Shown here piece after piece: positions 33,764 through 40,528 of a stretch of 64,000 nucleotides of DNA (its first letter is position 1; the number at the start of each line of letters is the position of its first letter). Below the pieces are notes generated by a model, which made no database searches, was not told the origin of the DNA, and saw only the letters and a list, made by a program, of their open reading frames with translations. A program made the position numbers and the translations under genes. The DNA comes from Acidimicrobiia bacterium (GTDB taxonomy: Bacteria > Actinomycetota > Acidimicrobiia > Spongiisociales > ZC4RG35), in contig JANQRA010000011.1 in the NCBI GenBank assembly GCA_028284765.1, forward strand, positions 124,001 to 188,000, read 5' to 3'.

Positions 33764-36541
33764 TCAGTCCGATAGCTCGATCGCAGCGGCGAGCGCCGAG
33801 GCATCTTCGATCGACATTTCGGTTCCCTTCGCCTTCCAGTCCACAAACCGGTCGTCATCGCTGAGCGATTCGAGGGCTTGGTTCCATTTGATCTCGTCCA
33901 GGCCATACGGCCATCGGCCGGCAGCCGATGCGGCGGACATGAGGACGGTCGCCGTTTCGCCGTCGCCGGTCTGGGCCGCAAGTAGGGCCAAGTATCGAAT
34001 AGCGGTCCAGGTGTAGGACACAGCTCCAATTCGCCGATAGACGTCCAGCCCTCCCTTGAGGGATTCGAGCGCAGCCGGACCATCGCCGACCTGCATGTAC
34101 GCCCAGCCCTGGGCGGTGAGGGCCATTCCCTCAATGAAACGGTTGTTCACCGATCGCGACCTCTCCACAGCGCGGGAGAACAGCGTGATAGCCCGGCTGT
34201 GGTCAGAGCCGATCAACGCTTCCCCAAGTGTGTAGTCGGCGTATGCGATGTACGTGGGTGAGCCTGTCTTCCGAGCGGTCTGCTCAATACCTTCAGCCAC
34301 TGCAAGAGCTTTGTCGTAGTAGCCCTGATACGAGAGCGCCAGCGCCTCGCCAGCCACGGCGTCGATGACACCGACCGTGTCTTCCACGGAGCTGGCTCTG
34401 ACCAGTTGCTTGTCGAACATCTCGAGAGCCATGTCGAGATCGCCGATATAGCAAGCGACATCTCCAGCCATGAACATCGGGAAGCGAGCTGCCGGGCCGT
34501 CGGAGAATGCGATTCCTCTCTCGGCATATTCCATTGCCAGTTCAACATCACCACGCTTCATGGCCGCCAGCGATGCCCAGGCAGATGCGATGGGCGTCAC
34601 CTCGTGTCCGTTGGCTGCAGCGAGGACCGTTTCGCCCCAGTCCACGATCGCAGGTGGCTGTCGGTGATAGAACCAATCGAACAAGCCCTCGAGAATGTCT
34701 GAGACGAAGTCGAAGTGGGCAGATTCGACCGAGAACCTGATGGCCGCTGCCATGTCATCCGTGGCCGCTTGCGCAACTTCGATCCACCGGGCTTCCTCCG
34801 GCCCGGCCAAACCATCACCAATGCGTGTAGACAAGCCAGCAAAGAACTCTGCGTGACGGAGTCTGGGCTCCACCTCGTTCCCGAGTCTCTCTGCAGCGAA
34901 AGACCTGAGAACTCGAAGCATGCGATATCCGTCTCCTGACCGACGAACGACGAGCGAGCGCTCGACCAGCGAAGCAATCAGGCCCGGAACCTGTTCCGGC
35001 GTCATGGTGTCGAAGGAGACGACGTGGGTAGCGGCCTTGAGCCCGAAAGGACCGGAAAAGACGGAGAGTCTCCGGAATACGGTTTGTTCCGACGACGTGA
35101 GGAGGTCGTAGGACCAGCTGACAAGGGCTTCGAGGGTCTGGTGGCGAGGCGTATCGCCTCGTCGTGGGCGTTCGAGGAGGTCGATTCTCTGCTGGAGCCG
35201 GTCGGTCATGTCTTCGAGCGTCAAAACCGAAGAACGTGAAGCCGCCATCTCGATGGCCAATGGCATGCGATCTACGAGTTCGCACAGATTCGACACCCGC
35301 CGATCGTCGTCAGCGAAGTCGGCTCCAACTCTCCGAGACCTTTCTAGGAAGAGATCCAAAGCTCCTTTCTCGTCCAGCGGTCCGAGATTGATGGACACCT
35401 CGCCTGCGACGTTGAGTGCCTCTCTGCTCGTGGTCAGAATCCGGACCTGTGTGTTGAGAAGGATGGCACTGACAATGTCTGCCACTTCGTCGATAACGTG
35501 CTCACAATTGTCCAGGCACAGGACGCCGCTCGACGTTTGCAATCGTGAGATGAGCGTTTCCAGTGGTTGGTCCCGTGCTTCGACGCCAACGGCGTTGAGG
35601 ATCGCCGGGAGAACACCATCCGGGCTTCCGACGCTTCCCAGCGCGACGAACCAAACGTTGTCTGCTCCAATGTCTCGAGACAGGAATTCGAGAACCAGCC
35701 GGGTCTTGCCCATACCTCCAGGACCGGTGACTGTCACCAATGAGGAAGAACTGATCGTTGATCCCAACTCCTCGATGTCCACCTCCCGGCCAATGAACTC
35801 ATCTGGCGGAACCGGCAACGGTGACACGGGTAGCCGAGCAAGCTCCTCAAAGACGGAATCCTCTGCTTGGGAGAGAGCGGGAGAGGGGTCGAGTCCGATC
35901 TCTGCGATTCTCGATCGGTACTCGTCGAGTGTCTTGATCGCTTCGGGCTGGCGGCCTGCGGCGTGGAGAATCAGCGCTCGTTCGATCCACGCCGATTCGC
36001 GCAGATGCTCTGCCGCAATGACACGATCAGCAGCTGTCAGCGCATTCTCGTAGTCACCGACCATGCGGAGGGATGAGGCGAGTTTCTCTTCTGCCGTGAG
36101 ACGCCGCTCGTGAAGCGCTCGAGCCTCGATGTCGAGGTGTGGGAAGTCTTCGAAGGCCGGGCCTCTCCACAGCGACAGTGCTTGCCTCACAACCTCCACA
36201 GATTCGAGTGGTCCCTGAGGCAGATTCGACATGAGGGCCACGAACGTATGTGCATCGATTTCGAACTCCGATGGGTCGAATCGGTATCCGGGAGATTCAG
36301 TGAGGATCGCGCTCCTGCCCAGTTCTCGCCTGAGTCGTGATACGTAGGACTGAATGGTGGCCGGTCCGGTCGGGGGCGGATCCTCACCCCAGAGGTGCTC
36401 CAGCAACGTTGGGACCGACACCACTTCACCGTTAGCCGCCACCAATGACGCCAGAAGCCTTCGCTGCGTGGGTCCTCCGAGGTCGATGGGCCCGTCTTCA
36501 GACTGGGCGGCGATTGGGCCCAGAACCGAGATCCGTATCAC
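33764..36541 (-). CDS. AfsR/SARP-type regulator with BTAD, NB-ARC ATPase and TPR-like C-terminus
   Basis: 925 residues. Residues 1-95 are an OmpR-like winged helix (TQRRLLASLVAANGEVVS, SYVSRLRRELG), 96-235 a BTAD helical domain, and about 247-500 an NB-ARC-type ATPase with P-loop VTGPGGMGKT (271-280) and LCLDNCEHV as the Walker B strand. The last 400 residues are helical repeats of TPR type. Such proteins activate transcription after ATP-driven oligomerisation, often next to their targets. The GTG start has TAATAT six bases upstream. The divergent methyltransferase gene is the natural candidate target; this is inference. Confidence 0.88.
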   Translation of the reverse strand: MIRISVLGPIAAQSEDGPIDLGGPTQRRLLASLVAANGEVVSVPTLLEHLWGEDPPPTGPATIQSYVSRLRRELGRSAILTESPGYRFDPSEFEIDAHTFVALMSNLPQGPLESVEVVRQALSLWRGPAFEDFPHLDIEARALHERRLTAEEKLASSLRMVGDYENALTAADRVIAAEHLRESAWIERALILHAAGRQPEAIKTLDEYRSRIAEIGLDPSPALSQAEDSVFEELARLPVSPLPVPPDEFIGREVDIEELGSTISSSSLVTVTGPGGMGKTRLVLEFLSRDIGADNVWFVALGSVGSPDGVLPAILNAVGVEARDQPLETLISRLQTSSGVLCLDNCEHVIDEVADIVSAILLNTQVRILTTSREALNVAGEVSINLGPLDEKGALDLFLERSRRVGADFADDDRRVSNLCELVDRMPLAIEMAASRSSVLTLEDMTDRLQQRIDLLERPRRGDTPRHQTLEALVSWSYDLLTSSEQTVFRRLSVFSGPFGLKAATHVVSFDTMTPEQVPGLIASLVERSLVVRRSGDGYRMLRVLRSFAAERLGNEVEPRLRHAEFFAGLSTRIGDGLAGPEEARWIEVAQAATDDMAAAIRFSVESAHFDFVSDILEGLFDWFYHRQPPAIVDWGETVLAAANGHEVTPIASAWASLAAMKRGDVELAMEYAERGIAFSDGPAARFPMFMAGDVACYIGDLDMALEMFDKQLVRASSVEDTVGVIDAVAGEALALSYQGYYDKALAVAEGIEQTARKTGSPTYIAYADYTLGEALIGSDHSRAITLFSRAVERSRSVNNRFIEGMALTAQGWAYMQVGDGPAALESLKGGLDVYRRIGAVSYTWTAIRYLALLAAQTGDGETATVLMSAASAAGRWPYGLDEIKWNQALESLSDDDRFVDWKAKGTEMSIEDASALAAAIELSD

Positions 36542-36631: not shown

Positions 36632-37726
36632 ATGACCATCGCAATTGAAAAAGTTGATGAGGCTGCCGTCGAGGACTTCGTCGGCCGTGTGTTCGACTCG
36701 GTCTTGGGGATGATGGACGCCTGGTCCATATATGTGGGCGACAAGCTCGGTCTTTACGATGCGCTTGCTGCTGGATCTCGAACACGGGACGAGTTGGCTT
36801 CCGAAACCAGCACCAACTGGCGCTATGTGGGCGAATGGCTCGAGCAACAGGTGACAACAGGGTTCTTGACTGTGGACGACCCGTCACGGCCCGACTCTGA
36901 GCGGGTCTACTCACTCCCGGCCGAGCACGCTGAGGTCTTCTGTGATCGAGACAGCCTCAACTTTCTGACGCCGTTCGTACGTCTGGTGACGGCCGGAGGG
37001 ATGCAGATGCAGTCTCTCGTCGAGGCCTATCGGACTGGCGGTGGCGTTTCCTGGGAGCAGTTCGGGGAAGACATGCGAACGGGTCAGGCAGAAATGAATC
37101 GGCCCTGGTTCCTCCAAGCGATCGGCACCGACTGGTTCCCTTCCGCCCCGGCCGTCCAGCAGAAGCTGGTTGAGCAGGACACCAGAGTCGCAGACATTGG
37201 ATGTGGCGAGGGATGGTCGTCCATCGCACTGGCGCAGGCCTACCCGGGGATCACCATCGACGCTTACGACGTCGATGAGGCATCGATACTTGCCGCCAGG
37301 CATCATGCTTCGGACGCCGGAGTAGCCGACCGCATCCGTTTCCATCACGTCGATGGCAAGGGGATCGAAGCTGGGAATCACTACGACGTGGTCACGTTCT
37401 TCGAATGTGTCCACGACATGCCGGACCCGGTCAGCGTTCTCGAGACGGCAAACCGCATCGTCAAAGAGGACGGGGTAGTTGTTGTCATGGACGAAGCCGT
37501 AGGTGAGGCTTTCGGGGAGCAGACGGACGAAGTGGAGAGGCTGATGTACGGGTTCTCGATGTTCGTGTGCCTTCCAGACGGCCTTTCCCATGACGAGAGC
37601 GTCGGCACGGGAACGGTGATGCGACCTTCAAAACTGGCCGAGTACGCGTCCTCTGCTGGGTTCGAGAGGGTCTCGGTTCTCCCCATCGAGAACGACCTCT
37701 GGCGTTTCTACCAACTCCACCAATAG
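36632..37726 (+). CDS. SAM-dependent methyltransferase with N-terminal winged-helix dimerisation domain
   Basis: 364 residues. Residues 20-95 resemble the winged-helix/dimerisation domain of O-methyltransferases (WSIYVGDKLGLYDALAAGSRTRDELA). The catalytic domain has VADIGCGEGWSSIALAQAYP (motif I), AYDVDEASI and FFECVHDMPDP. A very good ribosome-binding site (AAGGAGAAG) precedes the ATG, unlike many neighbours. The substrate is unknown; similar proteins act on small molecules or are annotated simply as class I methyltransferases. It is divergent from the BTAD regulator across 90 bases. Confidence 0.82.
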   Translation: MTIAIEKVDEAAVEDFVGRVFDSVLGMMDAWSIYVGDKLGLYDALAAGSRTRDELASETSTNWRYVGEWLEQQVTTGFLTVDDPSRPDSERVYSLPAEHAEVFCDRDSLNFLTPFVRLVTAGGMQMQSLVEAYRTGGGVSWEQFGEDMRTGQAEMNRPWFLQAIGTDWFPSAPAVQQKLVEQDTRVADIGCGEGWSSIALAQAYPGITIDAYDVDEASILAARHHASDAGVADRIRFHHVDGKGIEAGNHYDVVTFFECVHDMPDPVSVLETANRIVKEDGVVVVMDEAVGEAFGEQTDEVERLMYGFSMFVCLPDGLSHDESVGTGTVMRPSKLAEYASSAGFERVSVLPIENDLWRFYQLHQ

Positions 37727-37731
37727 CCGGA

Positions 37732-37788
37732 TTGCGAACCCTGGGTTCCTGACTTCGCATAGCGAAGTCAGGAGCCCTCAGTTCGCAA
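37732..37788. repeat. Long hairpin repeat, left copy, flanking the AbiEi/DUF559 gene
   Basis: Two 27-base arms (37732-37758 and 37762-37788) match at 23 positions around an ATA loop. The inner stem TCCTGACTTCGC / GCGAAGTCAGGA is perfect over 12 pairs. The outer-left arm begins GCGAACCCTGGGTTC, a motif found inverted in the right copy at 38736-38788. The stop codon and last codons of the AbiEi/DUF559 gene lie within the right arm. Confidence 0.85.
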
Positions 37789-38688
37789 AGAGCGGCGCCG
37801 GGAGAGGATCGCCGACACCGACTCCGAAACGGTTTGGGGATCGGACGTAACGTCCTCCCAGGTGAATCGGACCACCACCCATCCGTGCCTGACCGCATCG
37901 CGATCGCGCTTTCGGTCGTTTCGCATCTCAGATCGTCGTTGGTGCCAGCTCCGGGAGTCCCACTCGACTGCCAACCGGTGATCTGGGTAGGCGTCGTCGA
38001 AGCGGCGGCCGGGTGCCCACGGGACCCGGTATTCGGAGACCGGGTGTGGGGGCGGCATCGACAGGAGAATCCTGCGTCCTTTTCGTTCCAGAACCGAAGC
38101 CTCCGGTGCGAACAATCGGGCTTCGACAAACGTCGAGACGGCTTTGGTGCCGCCCTTGCCTCGTCGACCGATCTCACCCCTCATCGCTTCGAGTTGATCC
38201 AGCGATAGCAGTTTTGCCACCATCGCTGACTCTGCGACCCGTTCGAAGACTCGGTAGCTGACTACACCGGCCAGGTCGAACAACGTTCTGGGGGAGTTGG
38301 TGCAGGGTATCCCGTTGACGCTGACGAGGTGTGTGGGTGACAGATCGCCGGCTCGGCGTACGGTCACACCCGGGAACCGGTGAGTCGTATGGCTCGGGAC
38401 CGTGACGGTCGGCTCCAGCCTCGGTGGTGAAGGAAGCTTCAACAGGTGCGCAGCGGATTGGTGGGACGCGACTCCCTGAGGAAGTGCCAGCAGCGCACCT
38501 CTCAACAAGTCGCTGTGGTCGCTGGACGGTATGACCTGATAGATCCCTTCCTTGAGGGGCAGGAGGTCGCCCTCATTGACCATGCGGTCGACGCGGCTTG
38601 CCGAGACGGAGTTCGCCAGCAGTTGCTCCCGAGAGAGATACCCGCCGTTCTGGGTTGCGAGCTCGATCAGGTCTCGTGAGATCCCCAT
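37768..38688 (-). CDS. AbiEi-type winged-helix plus DUF559 (Vsr-like nuclease fold) protein
   Basis: 306 residues. The N-terminus (LIELATQNGGYLSREQLLANSVSASRVDRMV) is the winged helix found in AbiEi antitoxins and related regulators. The middle resembles the AbiEi C-terminal region (FDLAGVVSYRVFERVAESAM). Residues about 200-295 resemble DUF559, a restriction-endonuclease-like fold related to Vsr (DDAYPDHRLAVEWDSRSWH, RDAVRHGWVVVRFTWEDV). No AbiEii toxin partner is adjacent. The gene is flanked by inverted hairpin repeats and its 3' end runs into one of them. The family is common and multi-copy in actinobacteria; its function is unknown. Confidence 0.78.
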   Translation of the reverse strand: MGISRDLIELATQNGGYLSREQLLANSVSASRVDRMVNEGDLLPLKEGIYQVIPSSDHSDLLRGALLALPQGVASHQSAAHLLKLPSPPRLEPTVTVPSHTTHRFPGVTVRRAGDLSPTHLVSVNGIPCTNSPRTLFDLAGVVSYRVFERVAESAMVAKLLSLDQLEAMRGEIGRRGKGGTKAVSTFVEARLFAPEASVLERKGRRILLSMPPPHPVSEYRVPWAPGRRFDDAYPDHRLAVEWDSRSWHQRRSEMRNDRKRDRDAVRHGWVVVRFTWEDVTSDPQTVSESVSAILSRRRSLRTEGS

Positions 38689-38735
38689 ACGGCCAGCTTG
38701 TCTGACCGGACGGCCAGATGGAACACCGTCGTTCC

Positions 38736-38788
38736 GCGTTCTGCGGGCCGTGGACTTCGCATAGCGAAGTCCAGAACCCAGGGTTCGC
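38736..38788. repeat. Long hairpin repeat, right copy, flanking the AbiEi/DUF559 gene
   Basis: Arms 38736-38760 and 38764-38788 surround an ATA loop, with a perfect 10-pair inner stem TGGACTTCGC / GCGAAGTCCA. The outer (right) arm, read in reverse complement, matches the outer arm of the left copy at 23 of 25 bases. The two copies differ in the stem by paired changes, so pairing is kept. It lies between the carboxylase stop (38798) and the AbiEi/DUF559 start. Confidence 0.82.
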
Positions 38789-38797
38789 TATTGACGG

Positions 38798-40528
38798 CTA
38801 TTTGATGATGGCGATGACCTGCCCGGCGGCCACTGTGTCGCCGGGCTCGACTCGGAGCTCTACAACATCGCCGTCGGATGGCGAGAGAACCTCGTTCTCC
38901 ATTTTCATGGCCTCGAGCACACAAATCGGTTCACCGGCCTCGATTGATTCACCGGCCTTGACCGAGACTTTCACGATCGTTCCCTGCATCGGGGCTGAGA
39001 CAACTCCGTCAGAACCCCCGCTAGACCCTGAGCTGGTCAACCTCGGAGGACGACGTTTGACCTGACCTCCAACGGAGCTCTCAGGTGCCCAATAGGAAAC
39101 CTTGAAACGGCGACCGCCGACTTCGACCGTGATGTCGCGCTTGGTCGTTTCCTCTTCTTCGGGCATGTGAGGAGCGACATTGGGCTCGCCCTCGCCGAGT
39201 TTCACCGAATCCTCCATCCACTTTGTGTGGTGTCGACCCTCAACGAAAGCCTCGTGATCGAGCACCGTCAGATGAGCCGGAATGGTTGACGCAACACCCA
39301 CCACCTTGAACTCGCGGAGCGCACGCTTCCCACGATTGATGGCAGCCTCTCGATCAGCGCCCCAGACGACGAGCTTTGCCATCAGATTGTCGTAGTACTG
39401 GGAAACACTCGTGCCTGGTCGAATCCATGAGTCGACACGCACCCCCGGTCCTGCAGGCTCTTCCCACTCGACGACCTGACCTGGAGTCGGGAGGTACTCG
39501 TTGAAAGGGTCTTCGGCGTTGATTCGAAACTCGATGGCATGGCCACGAGGTTCAACCGAGTCGATCGACAACTCCTCACCGGCGGCGATCCTCAATTGCC
39601 ACTCAACGAGATCGAGGCCAGTCACCATCTCAGTGACCGTGTGCTCGACCTGCAGGCGGGTGTTCATTTCGAGGAAGTAGAAGTCTCCTTGCTGGTCCAT
39701 CAGGAACTCCACGGTCCCGGCGTTCACGTAGTCACATGAGCGCCCGGCATCGATGGCCGCTTTGCCCAGCACCTTTCGCTGCTTGTTGGTGATGCCCGGT
39801 GACGGAGTCTCTTCAATCAGCTTCTGATGTCTGCGTTGGACAGAACAGTCCCTTTCACCCAGGAAGACTCCGTTGCCGTGCTGATCAAAGAGGATTTGGG
39901 CCTCAACATGGCGCGGTTTATCGAGATACTTCTCGACGTAAACCTGGGCGTTGCCGAAGTAGGCCTCGGCTTCTCGCTTCGCACCGTCGAAGGCGTCACC
40001 AGCCTCTTCAGCGCTGCGCACAACCCTCAGGCCTTTGCCGCCACCACCGTGCGCCGCTTTGATCGCTACCGGGTACCCGAAGTCTTCTGCAAGGGACAGG
40101 ACTTCATCGACGGTTGTCACCGGGTCGGTTATCCCGGGCACTGTCGGCACACCAAAGGCTTCCGCATTCCGGCGCGAGGTGATCTTGTCGCCCATGGCCT
40201 CGATGGCCGACGCAGGGGGACCCACCCAGATCAAGCCAGCTTCTTGAACCGCATTCGCAAATGTGGCGTTTTCTGAGAGGAATCCGTATCCAGGGTGAAT
40301 GGCTTCCGCTCCAGATTCGTGGGCGATCCTGAGAACGTTCTCGATATTCAGATAGCTCTCAGCCGCTGGCGCACCTCCGACGTTCCAGGCTTCGTCCGCG
40401 ATATCGACGTGCAAAGCGTCTCTGTCGAGTTCGGAGAAGATGGCGATGGTGCGGATGCCCATCTCCTGAGCAGTCCGGATTACCCGGACGGCGATCTCGC
40501 CGCGATTGGCTATCAGAAGGCTCTTCAT
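38798..40528 (-). CDS. Acyl-CoA carboxylase alpha subunit (biotin carboxylase + biotin carrier)
   Basis: 576 residues. The biotin carboxylase part (1-450) has IANRGEIAVRVIRTAQEMGI, IHPGYGFLSEN, KAAHGGGGKGLRVV (ATP-grasp loop) and FLEMNTRLQVEH. The C-terminal biotinyl domain has EAMKM with biotin Lys542. This two-in-one layout is the actinobacterial AccA/PccA type. It makes carboxybiotin for transfer to acetyl- or propionyl-CoA by the beta subunit, whose stop overlaps its start by 4 bases. BirA, which attaches the biotin, is encoded just beyond. Together with the nearby mutase, propionyl-CoA carboxylation is plausible, but substrate range is not visible. Confidence 0.94.
   Translation of the reverse strand: MKSLLIANRGEIAVRVIRTAQEMGIRTIAIFSELDRDALHVDIADEAWNVGGAPAAESYLNIENVLRIAHESGAEAIHPGYGFLSENATFANAVQEAGLIWVGPPASAIEAMGDKITSRRNAEAFGVPTVPGITDPVTTVDEVLSLAEDFGYPVAIKAAHGGGGKGLRVVRSAEEAGDAFDGAKREAEAYFGNAQVYVEKYLDKPRHVEAQILFDQHGNGVFLGERDCSVQRRHQKLIEETPSPGITNKQRKVLGKAAIDAGRSCDYVNAGTVEFLMDQQGDFYFLEMNTRLQVEHTVTEMVTGLDLVEWQLRIAAGEELSIDSVEPRGHAIEFRINAEDPFNEYLPTPGQVVEWEEPAGPGVRVDSWIRPGTSVSQYYDNLMAKLVVWGADREAAINRGKRALREFKVVGVASTIPAHLTVLDHEAFVEGRHHTKWMEDSVKLGEGEPNVAPHMPEEEETTKRDITVEVGGRRFKVSYWAPESSVGGQVKRRPPRLTSSGSSGGSDGVVSAPMQGTIVKVSVKAGESIEAGEPICVLEAMKMENEVLSPSDGDVVELRVEPGDTVAAGQVIAIIK

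Follow-up and report, generated by a model that had tools for sequence, protein, structure and literature searches.

Palindromes flanking AbiEi-DUF559 genes in Actinomycetota and their likeness to a mobile element

Genes for AbiEi-DUF559 proteins are common in actinobacteria, where they are annotated as antitoxins or unknown proteins. Proteins with related parts are the AbiEi antitoxins, for which binding to two 23 bp inverted repeats 3 bp apart was reported and which bind inverted repeats at their own promoters (PMC7319586), and the homing endonuclease I-Bth0305I, reported to form a dimer on its target, which is nearly 60 bp long (PMC3943268). Among mobile systems the closest in way of life is that of the REP palindromes and the RAYTs that propagate them. 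In the open-access literature searched, no publication was found that ties DUF559 or AbiEi to palindromes, mobile elements or RAYTs, and publication elsewhere is not excluded.

The window analyzed in this study is a stretch of 64,000 nt from an Acidimicrobiia bacterium (GCA_028284765.1, contig JANQRA010000011.1, positions 124,001–188,000, forward strand), whose 2.9 Mb genome (G000) is referred to below as the own genome. An earlier sequence-only reading of the window had claimed two hairpins enclosing one AbiEi/DUF559 gene, and had proposed an undescribed mobile or domesticated nuclease-hairpin system recalling RAYT/REP.

Window locus and its protein

The two hairpins were confirmed at the places claimed. 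Each is a near-palindrome of 25+3+25 bp (~53 bp), and exactly one gene is enclosed. The palindrome downstream of the gene, h1, occupies window positions 37734–37786 (arms 37734–37758 and 37762–37786, loop ATA at 37759–37761), and that upstream, h2, positions 38736–38788 (arms 38736–38760 and 38764–38788, loop ATA at 38761–38763); a covariance model of the window palindrome matched them at C22:161730–161790 (78.5 bits) and C22:162732–162792 (68.9 bits), respectively. The solitary AbiEi-DUF559 gene (37768–38688, minus strand) encodes 306 amino acids, and its 3' end is overlapped by h1, the stop codon falling within the h1 inner arm. Palindrome, AbiEi-EDxHD nuclease gene and palindrome together make a unit of about 1.05 kb. 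Both outer neighbours lie outside the unit, and each palindrome starts a few bases past the stop codon of its neighbour: a methyltransferase gene (36632–37726, plus strand) ends 7 bases before h1, and an accA3-like biotin carboxylase/biotin carrier gene (38798–40528, minus strand) ends 9 bases past h2. With these two genes as neighbours, no AbiEii toxin gene stands beside the AbiEi-DUF559 gene. Divergent from the methyltransferase gene is an ORF of 925 aa (window 33764–36541, minus strand), by eye a SARP/BTAD-type ATPase regulator.

The outer 15 bases, GCGAACCCTGGGTTC, are the same in h1 and h2, inverted, and the 19-mer core GACTTCGCATAGCGAAGTC occurs twice in the window versus 0.02 occurrences expected by chance. 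Being near-palindromes, h1 and h2 score as a direct repeat of each other and also as an inverted one; the opposite orientation claimed for the hairpins depends on a modest asymmetry between the arms, which is real at this locus. A search of Rfam gave no match. No terminator-like site (a hairpin followed by a T run) was found by scan at h1 or h2, and a reading of the palindromes as intrinsic terminators was rejected on this negative result.

An AlphaFold2 model of the protein was built with 54 homologues (pLDDT 92.5). Its first ~190 residues (38119–38688, minus strand) matched the fold of the AbiEi antitoxin 6y8q and of Rv2827c (Foldseek, 6y8q and 1zel), and the PADLOC AbiEi models matched the same part. 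The last ~100 residues (~195–295; 37804–38106, minus strand) form an EDxHD/Vsr-type nuclease domain, identified with 3r3p and 3hrl by profile and with 3r3p by fold. The fold match to 3r3p, the catalytic domain of I-Bth0305I (TM ~0.8 by target length), was in agreement with the sequence-profile match (E 2.9e-5). Pfam matches to AbiEi_4, MTES_1575 and DUF559 were weak but consistent, the cut-off being exceeded by DUF559 only. Residues D231, E242, D244, H249, D258 and R261, in nuclease-type placement, were invariant across 54 proteins. Pfam, profile and fold searches returned an AbiEi part and a DUF559/EDxHD nuclease only, without a Y1 HUH tyrosine transposase (IS200/IS605 type).

The AbiEi part is proposed as the palindrome-binding part of the protein, an inference from the fold match, without binding data. 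By analogy, and not as a binding result, the 25+3+25 geometry would fit both the AbiEi operators and the dimer target of I-Bth0305I.

Flanking repeats and dispersed palindromes

Seven AbiEi-DUF559 paralogs were found in the own genome, two of them broken by a stop codon or a frameshift. Each of the seven lay between matched repeats, which were palindromic in nearly all cases and had a sequence private to that paralog. At the decayed paralogs L018 (C18:52334–53026) and L019 (C18:28119–28981) the flanking palindromes were seen to persist despite the stop codon or frameshift.

For 69 homologous loci from public genomes, mostly of Acidimicrobiia, the left flank was then compared with the right, and the best local match was scored against a threshold. 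A flank match was obtained in 71% of these loci, versus 1.8% when flanks were swapped and 2.7% when windows were shifted, and in none of 24 loci of the control gene accA3; no flanking pair was detectable in about 30% of the 69. In other Actinomycetota families 12 of 26 loci matched (control 1.7%), one of them in a relative from the window's own order, and three further genomes gave 16 of 20 (control 6.8%). Matched flanking repeats were also present at a Tsukamurella tyrosinosolvens plasmid gene annotated 'DUF559 domain-containing protein'. Six matches came from Rhodococcus plasmids, and the one inspected was an ordinary AbiEi/AbiEii pair of different architecture. A phage origin was considered and rejected, with no match in phage records and only two weak partial matches in viral contigs. 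On this evidence most AbiEi-DUF559 genes have a private palindrome; that they behave as mobile elements is probable and remains an inference.

The orientation of the flanking pairs was mixed (29 direct and 25 inverted over 54 loci). The opposite orientation seen in the window is therefore not general, and because direct and inverted pairs are about equally common the outer arms do not qualify as classical terminal inverted repeats, the role suggested for them. No signal of a target-site duplication was obtained over 36 palindrome copies. A classical transposon with terminal inverted repeats was rejected because of the mixed orientation and because no target-site duplication was seen.

The palindrome sequence follows the protein sequence. 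Over the 54 loci, protein identity and palindrome similarity were correlated with a Mantel r of 0.69 (maximum of 9999 permutations, 0.27), and the correlation persisted among pairs below 55% identity (r 0.46). The motif AACCC(A/T)GGGTT was common to the palindromes of proteins close to that of the window. As a predictor of the palindrome the N-terminal part was slightly better than the nuclease part (partial r 0.39 versus 0.22), a difference that is not decisive.

In the own genome the covariance model gave 43 strand-wise matches, equivalent to about 20 copies, and the palindromes of two further own-genome paralogs also had dispersed copies. Among relatives, the palindrome was found in 17 of 20 genomes with a close homologue (match E ≤ 1e-50), the other three giving no covariance-model match, and in none of the 21 without a DUF559 match (at 1e-20). 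The co-occurrence of palindrome and gene was significant by genome (Fisher p 8e-7) and by genus (p 2e-4). Within one genus, g9, genome G027 has the gene and palindromes, and its congeners G008 and G022 lack both. The Mantel and co-occurrence statistics are inflated by phylogenetic relatedness to an unmeasured degree; the same kind of dependence on kinship does not apply to the tests with swapped flanks, shifted windows or a control gene.

Of 36 palindrome copies, 64% were no more than 8 nt away from a stop codon that ends a long frame, versus 6.6% at random. Paired stem changes between the two window copies had been taken as a sign of constraint, which two copies do not prove. Twelve own-genome copies were uninformative, paired changes not exceeding those in shuffles. 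Over 35 copies from many genomes, 80 two-sided cells were observed versus 42.7 expected, a value reached in 0 of 500 shuffles, and it is shown at this scale that palindromic symmetry is kept by compensatory change.

Further strong palindromes of other sequences were observed in the own genome at L008:1435–1471 and L012:627–673, one of which adjoins a copy of the window family.

Site comparisons and rival explanations

Two units with 66% protein identity (L047 and L053) could be aligned from outer palindrome edge to outer palindrome edge only, and their neighbours were unrelated genes. G026 and G027 carry the unit between accA3 and lpdA; in the congeners G006, G020 and G022 it is absent, accA3 adjoins lpdA and no palindrome is found. 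The accA3-site units of genera g1, g7 and g9 are mutually closest relatives, those of G026 and G027 being closest to the window's own, and the site may therefore be one old insertion with losses. It is possible to read the pattern in this way as well as by repeated arrival. Solo palindromes of G026 were missing at the orthologous sites of its congener G020 and present in G006. For the window unit no clean empty site was found downstream of accA3 in the relatives, among which no congener of the window genome was compared. Several homologous loci were syntenic between related genomes, and many units are for this reason regarded as old residents.

These comparisons, with those of the preceding section, show that gene and palindromes are linked, that palindrome identity tracks protein identity, and that the edges of the unit lie at the palindromes. 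They also show that dispersed copies occur only where the gene family occurs, and that a given site may be occupied in one genome and empty in another. Mobility of the unit is inferred from comparison, no movement having been observed. The sequence-only reading had named two outcomes that would refute it, and it survived both: the hairpins do occur genome-wide, but linked to the gene (no copies in the 21 relatives without a match, all seven paralogs flanked), and the gene is not fixed at the window site in all relatives. Its proposal of a nuclease-hairpin system is therefore supported.

Some observations at related sites are recorded here in their own right. At L043:4953–7370 and L040:4929–7368 two palindrome copies enclose an ATPase gene, judged by eye to be HerA/VirB4-like. 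The syntenic L037 (compared from 2509 onward) and L039 lack this gene, and their alignment picks up again at the palindrome; the gene may have been lost or gained at the palindromes. In syntenic pairs (L037, L039, L042, L043) the DUF559 gene had about 68–71% DNA identity versus 80–87% for its immediate neighbours, as if it were fast-evolving or, possibly, replaced in place. Just downstream of accA3, L153 (G019) carries two tandem copies of another palindrome family, with none there in the congener L151, and L144 has at the same site yet another solo palindrome, absent in the congener L145.

The explanation we favour, and hold to be somewhat more likely than not, is that the unit is a copy of an actinobacterial mobile element and that the solo palindromes are its minimal form, propagated in trans; the binding, the cutting and the transposition or homing chemistry are inferred. 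The AbiEi part would bind its cognate 25+3+25 bp palindrome as two protomers, as AbiEi antitoxins do on their paired 23 bp inverted repeats. The next step would be a cut by the EDxHD nuclease domain, placed at the palindrome, next to it or at a target adjoining a gene end, and repair or copying would leave a lone palindrome or a whole palindrome-gene-palindrome unit, mostly right behind stop codons. A palindrome-binding nuclease would in this way propagate its own gene and palindromes, as RAYTs do with REPs, by means of an unrelated enzyme.

One rival is a free-standing homing endonuclease gene, with the palindrome as the cutting target. Repair by recombination would copy the gene into solo palindromes, leaving a palindrome on each side, and the palindromes would spread otherwise. 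The catalytic domain is indeed of homing-endonuclease type, the gene is always found between palindrome copies, and the edges of the unit are the palindromes. This reading leaves unexplained why palindromes disperse only in genomes with the gene family. A homing gene moreover normally splits and thereby destroys its target, yet complete palindromes stand on both sides, and the empty accA3-lpdA sites of the congeners have no palindrome; we consider it unlikely. No more probable is a domesticated regulator, in which the protein would be a DNA-binding autorepressor or 3'-end regulator, the palindromes operators or RNA 3'-end structures kept for the host, and the nuclease would serve another purpose, e.g., defence. 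The promoter binding known for AbiEi proteins (PMC7319586) speaks for it, as do the clustering of palindromes beside stop codons and the pairing kept through compensatory change. Against it, the gene has a palindrome on its downstream side too and not only upstream, solo copies follow gene ends and are not placed at promoters, and palindrome sites differ between congeners. The scan found no terminator-like site at either palindrome, the similarity of units stops at the palindromes, and the nuclease residues are invariant.

A further rival is a self-contained toxin-antitoxin-like module, whose gene would encode a nuclease toxin or serve in defence and whose palindromes would mark the protein or titrate it. 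In its favour is the match of the PADLOC AbiEi models to the N-terminal part. The partner toxin gene is absent, however, a single gene lying between housekeeping genes, and neither dispersed solo palindromes nor unit-wise relocation would be predicted; this rival is very improbable. Coincidence, by which a dispersed repeat family would flank the gene by chance, can appeal to the dispersal of the palindromes in the genome. It is refuted by control rates of 0–7% against 46–80% for the AbiEi-DUF559 gene family, and is practically ruled out.

Beyond the mobile-element explanation favoured above stands a bolder reading, for which the evidence at present tips neither way. It holds that a phylum-wide, undescribed class of mobile elements exists, in which a nuclease of homing-endonuclease type, joined to a DNA-binding module of antitoxin type, carries its own ~50 bp palindromes and multiplies them. 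With no more assurance, it may be said that the REP/RAYT way of life was here invented independently, on the basis of another enzyme. If true, a class of dispersed palindromic repeats in Actinomycetota would be explained and a new enzyme class would be added to mobile DNA. Putative sequence-specific nucleases would also become available in large number, each naturally paired with a recognition site of ~50 bp, with specificity readable from genomes and open to direct test.

Comparison with known systems

Insertion sequences and their MITEs share with the present units the combination of an autonomous unit and short non-autonomous derivatives with its ends. Here, however, no known transposase family is present, no target-site duplication was found, and each 'end' consists of an entire palindrome, which occurs on its own as well. 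The AbiEi of type IV toxin-antitoxin systems has the fold of the N-terminal ~190 residues, and known members bind two 23 bp inverted repeats 3 bp apart. In the present proteins, for which such binding is only inferred, this fold is fused to a nuclease domain without an AbiEii gene, and the palindromes stand on both sides of the gene and elsewhere. I-Bth0305I has a related EDxHD catalytic domain with conserved acidic and His residues, and its dimer target would fit the palindrome length. Unlike its gene, that described here lies in no intron or intein and splits no target; the DNA-binding part is AbiEi-like, and the palindromes are carried along and also dispersed.

The likeness to RAYT/REP lies in the arrangement: palindromes flank a gene and recur elsewhere as solo extragenic copies near gene ends, and one genome has several such gene-palindrome pairs, which differ from each other in sequence and in which palindrome and protein diverge together. 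The enzyme, in contrast, combines an AbiEi-type fold with an EDxHD/Vsr-type nuclease and is not a Y1 HUH transposase. The GT(A/G)G head of REPs was looked for and is absent, both in the palindrome consensus and as a conserved sequence beside the palindrome; the palindromes are ~45–60 bp long and number tens, not hundreds, of copies, and the flanking copies are direct as often as inverted (29 versus 25). The system thus resembles RAYT/REP in its proposed way of working without being a member, having no Y1 transposase, no GTAG head and mixed orientation. What appears new rests on the enzyme class and on the criteria of known systems that are not fulfilled; the way of life has a known analogue in REP/RAYT.
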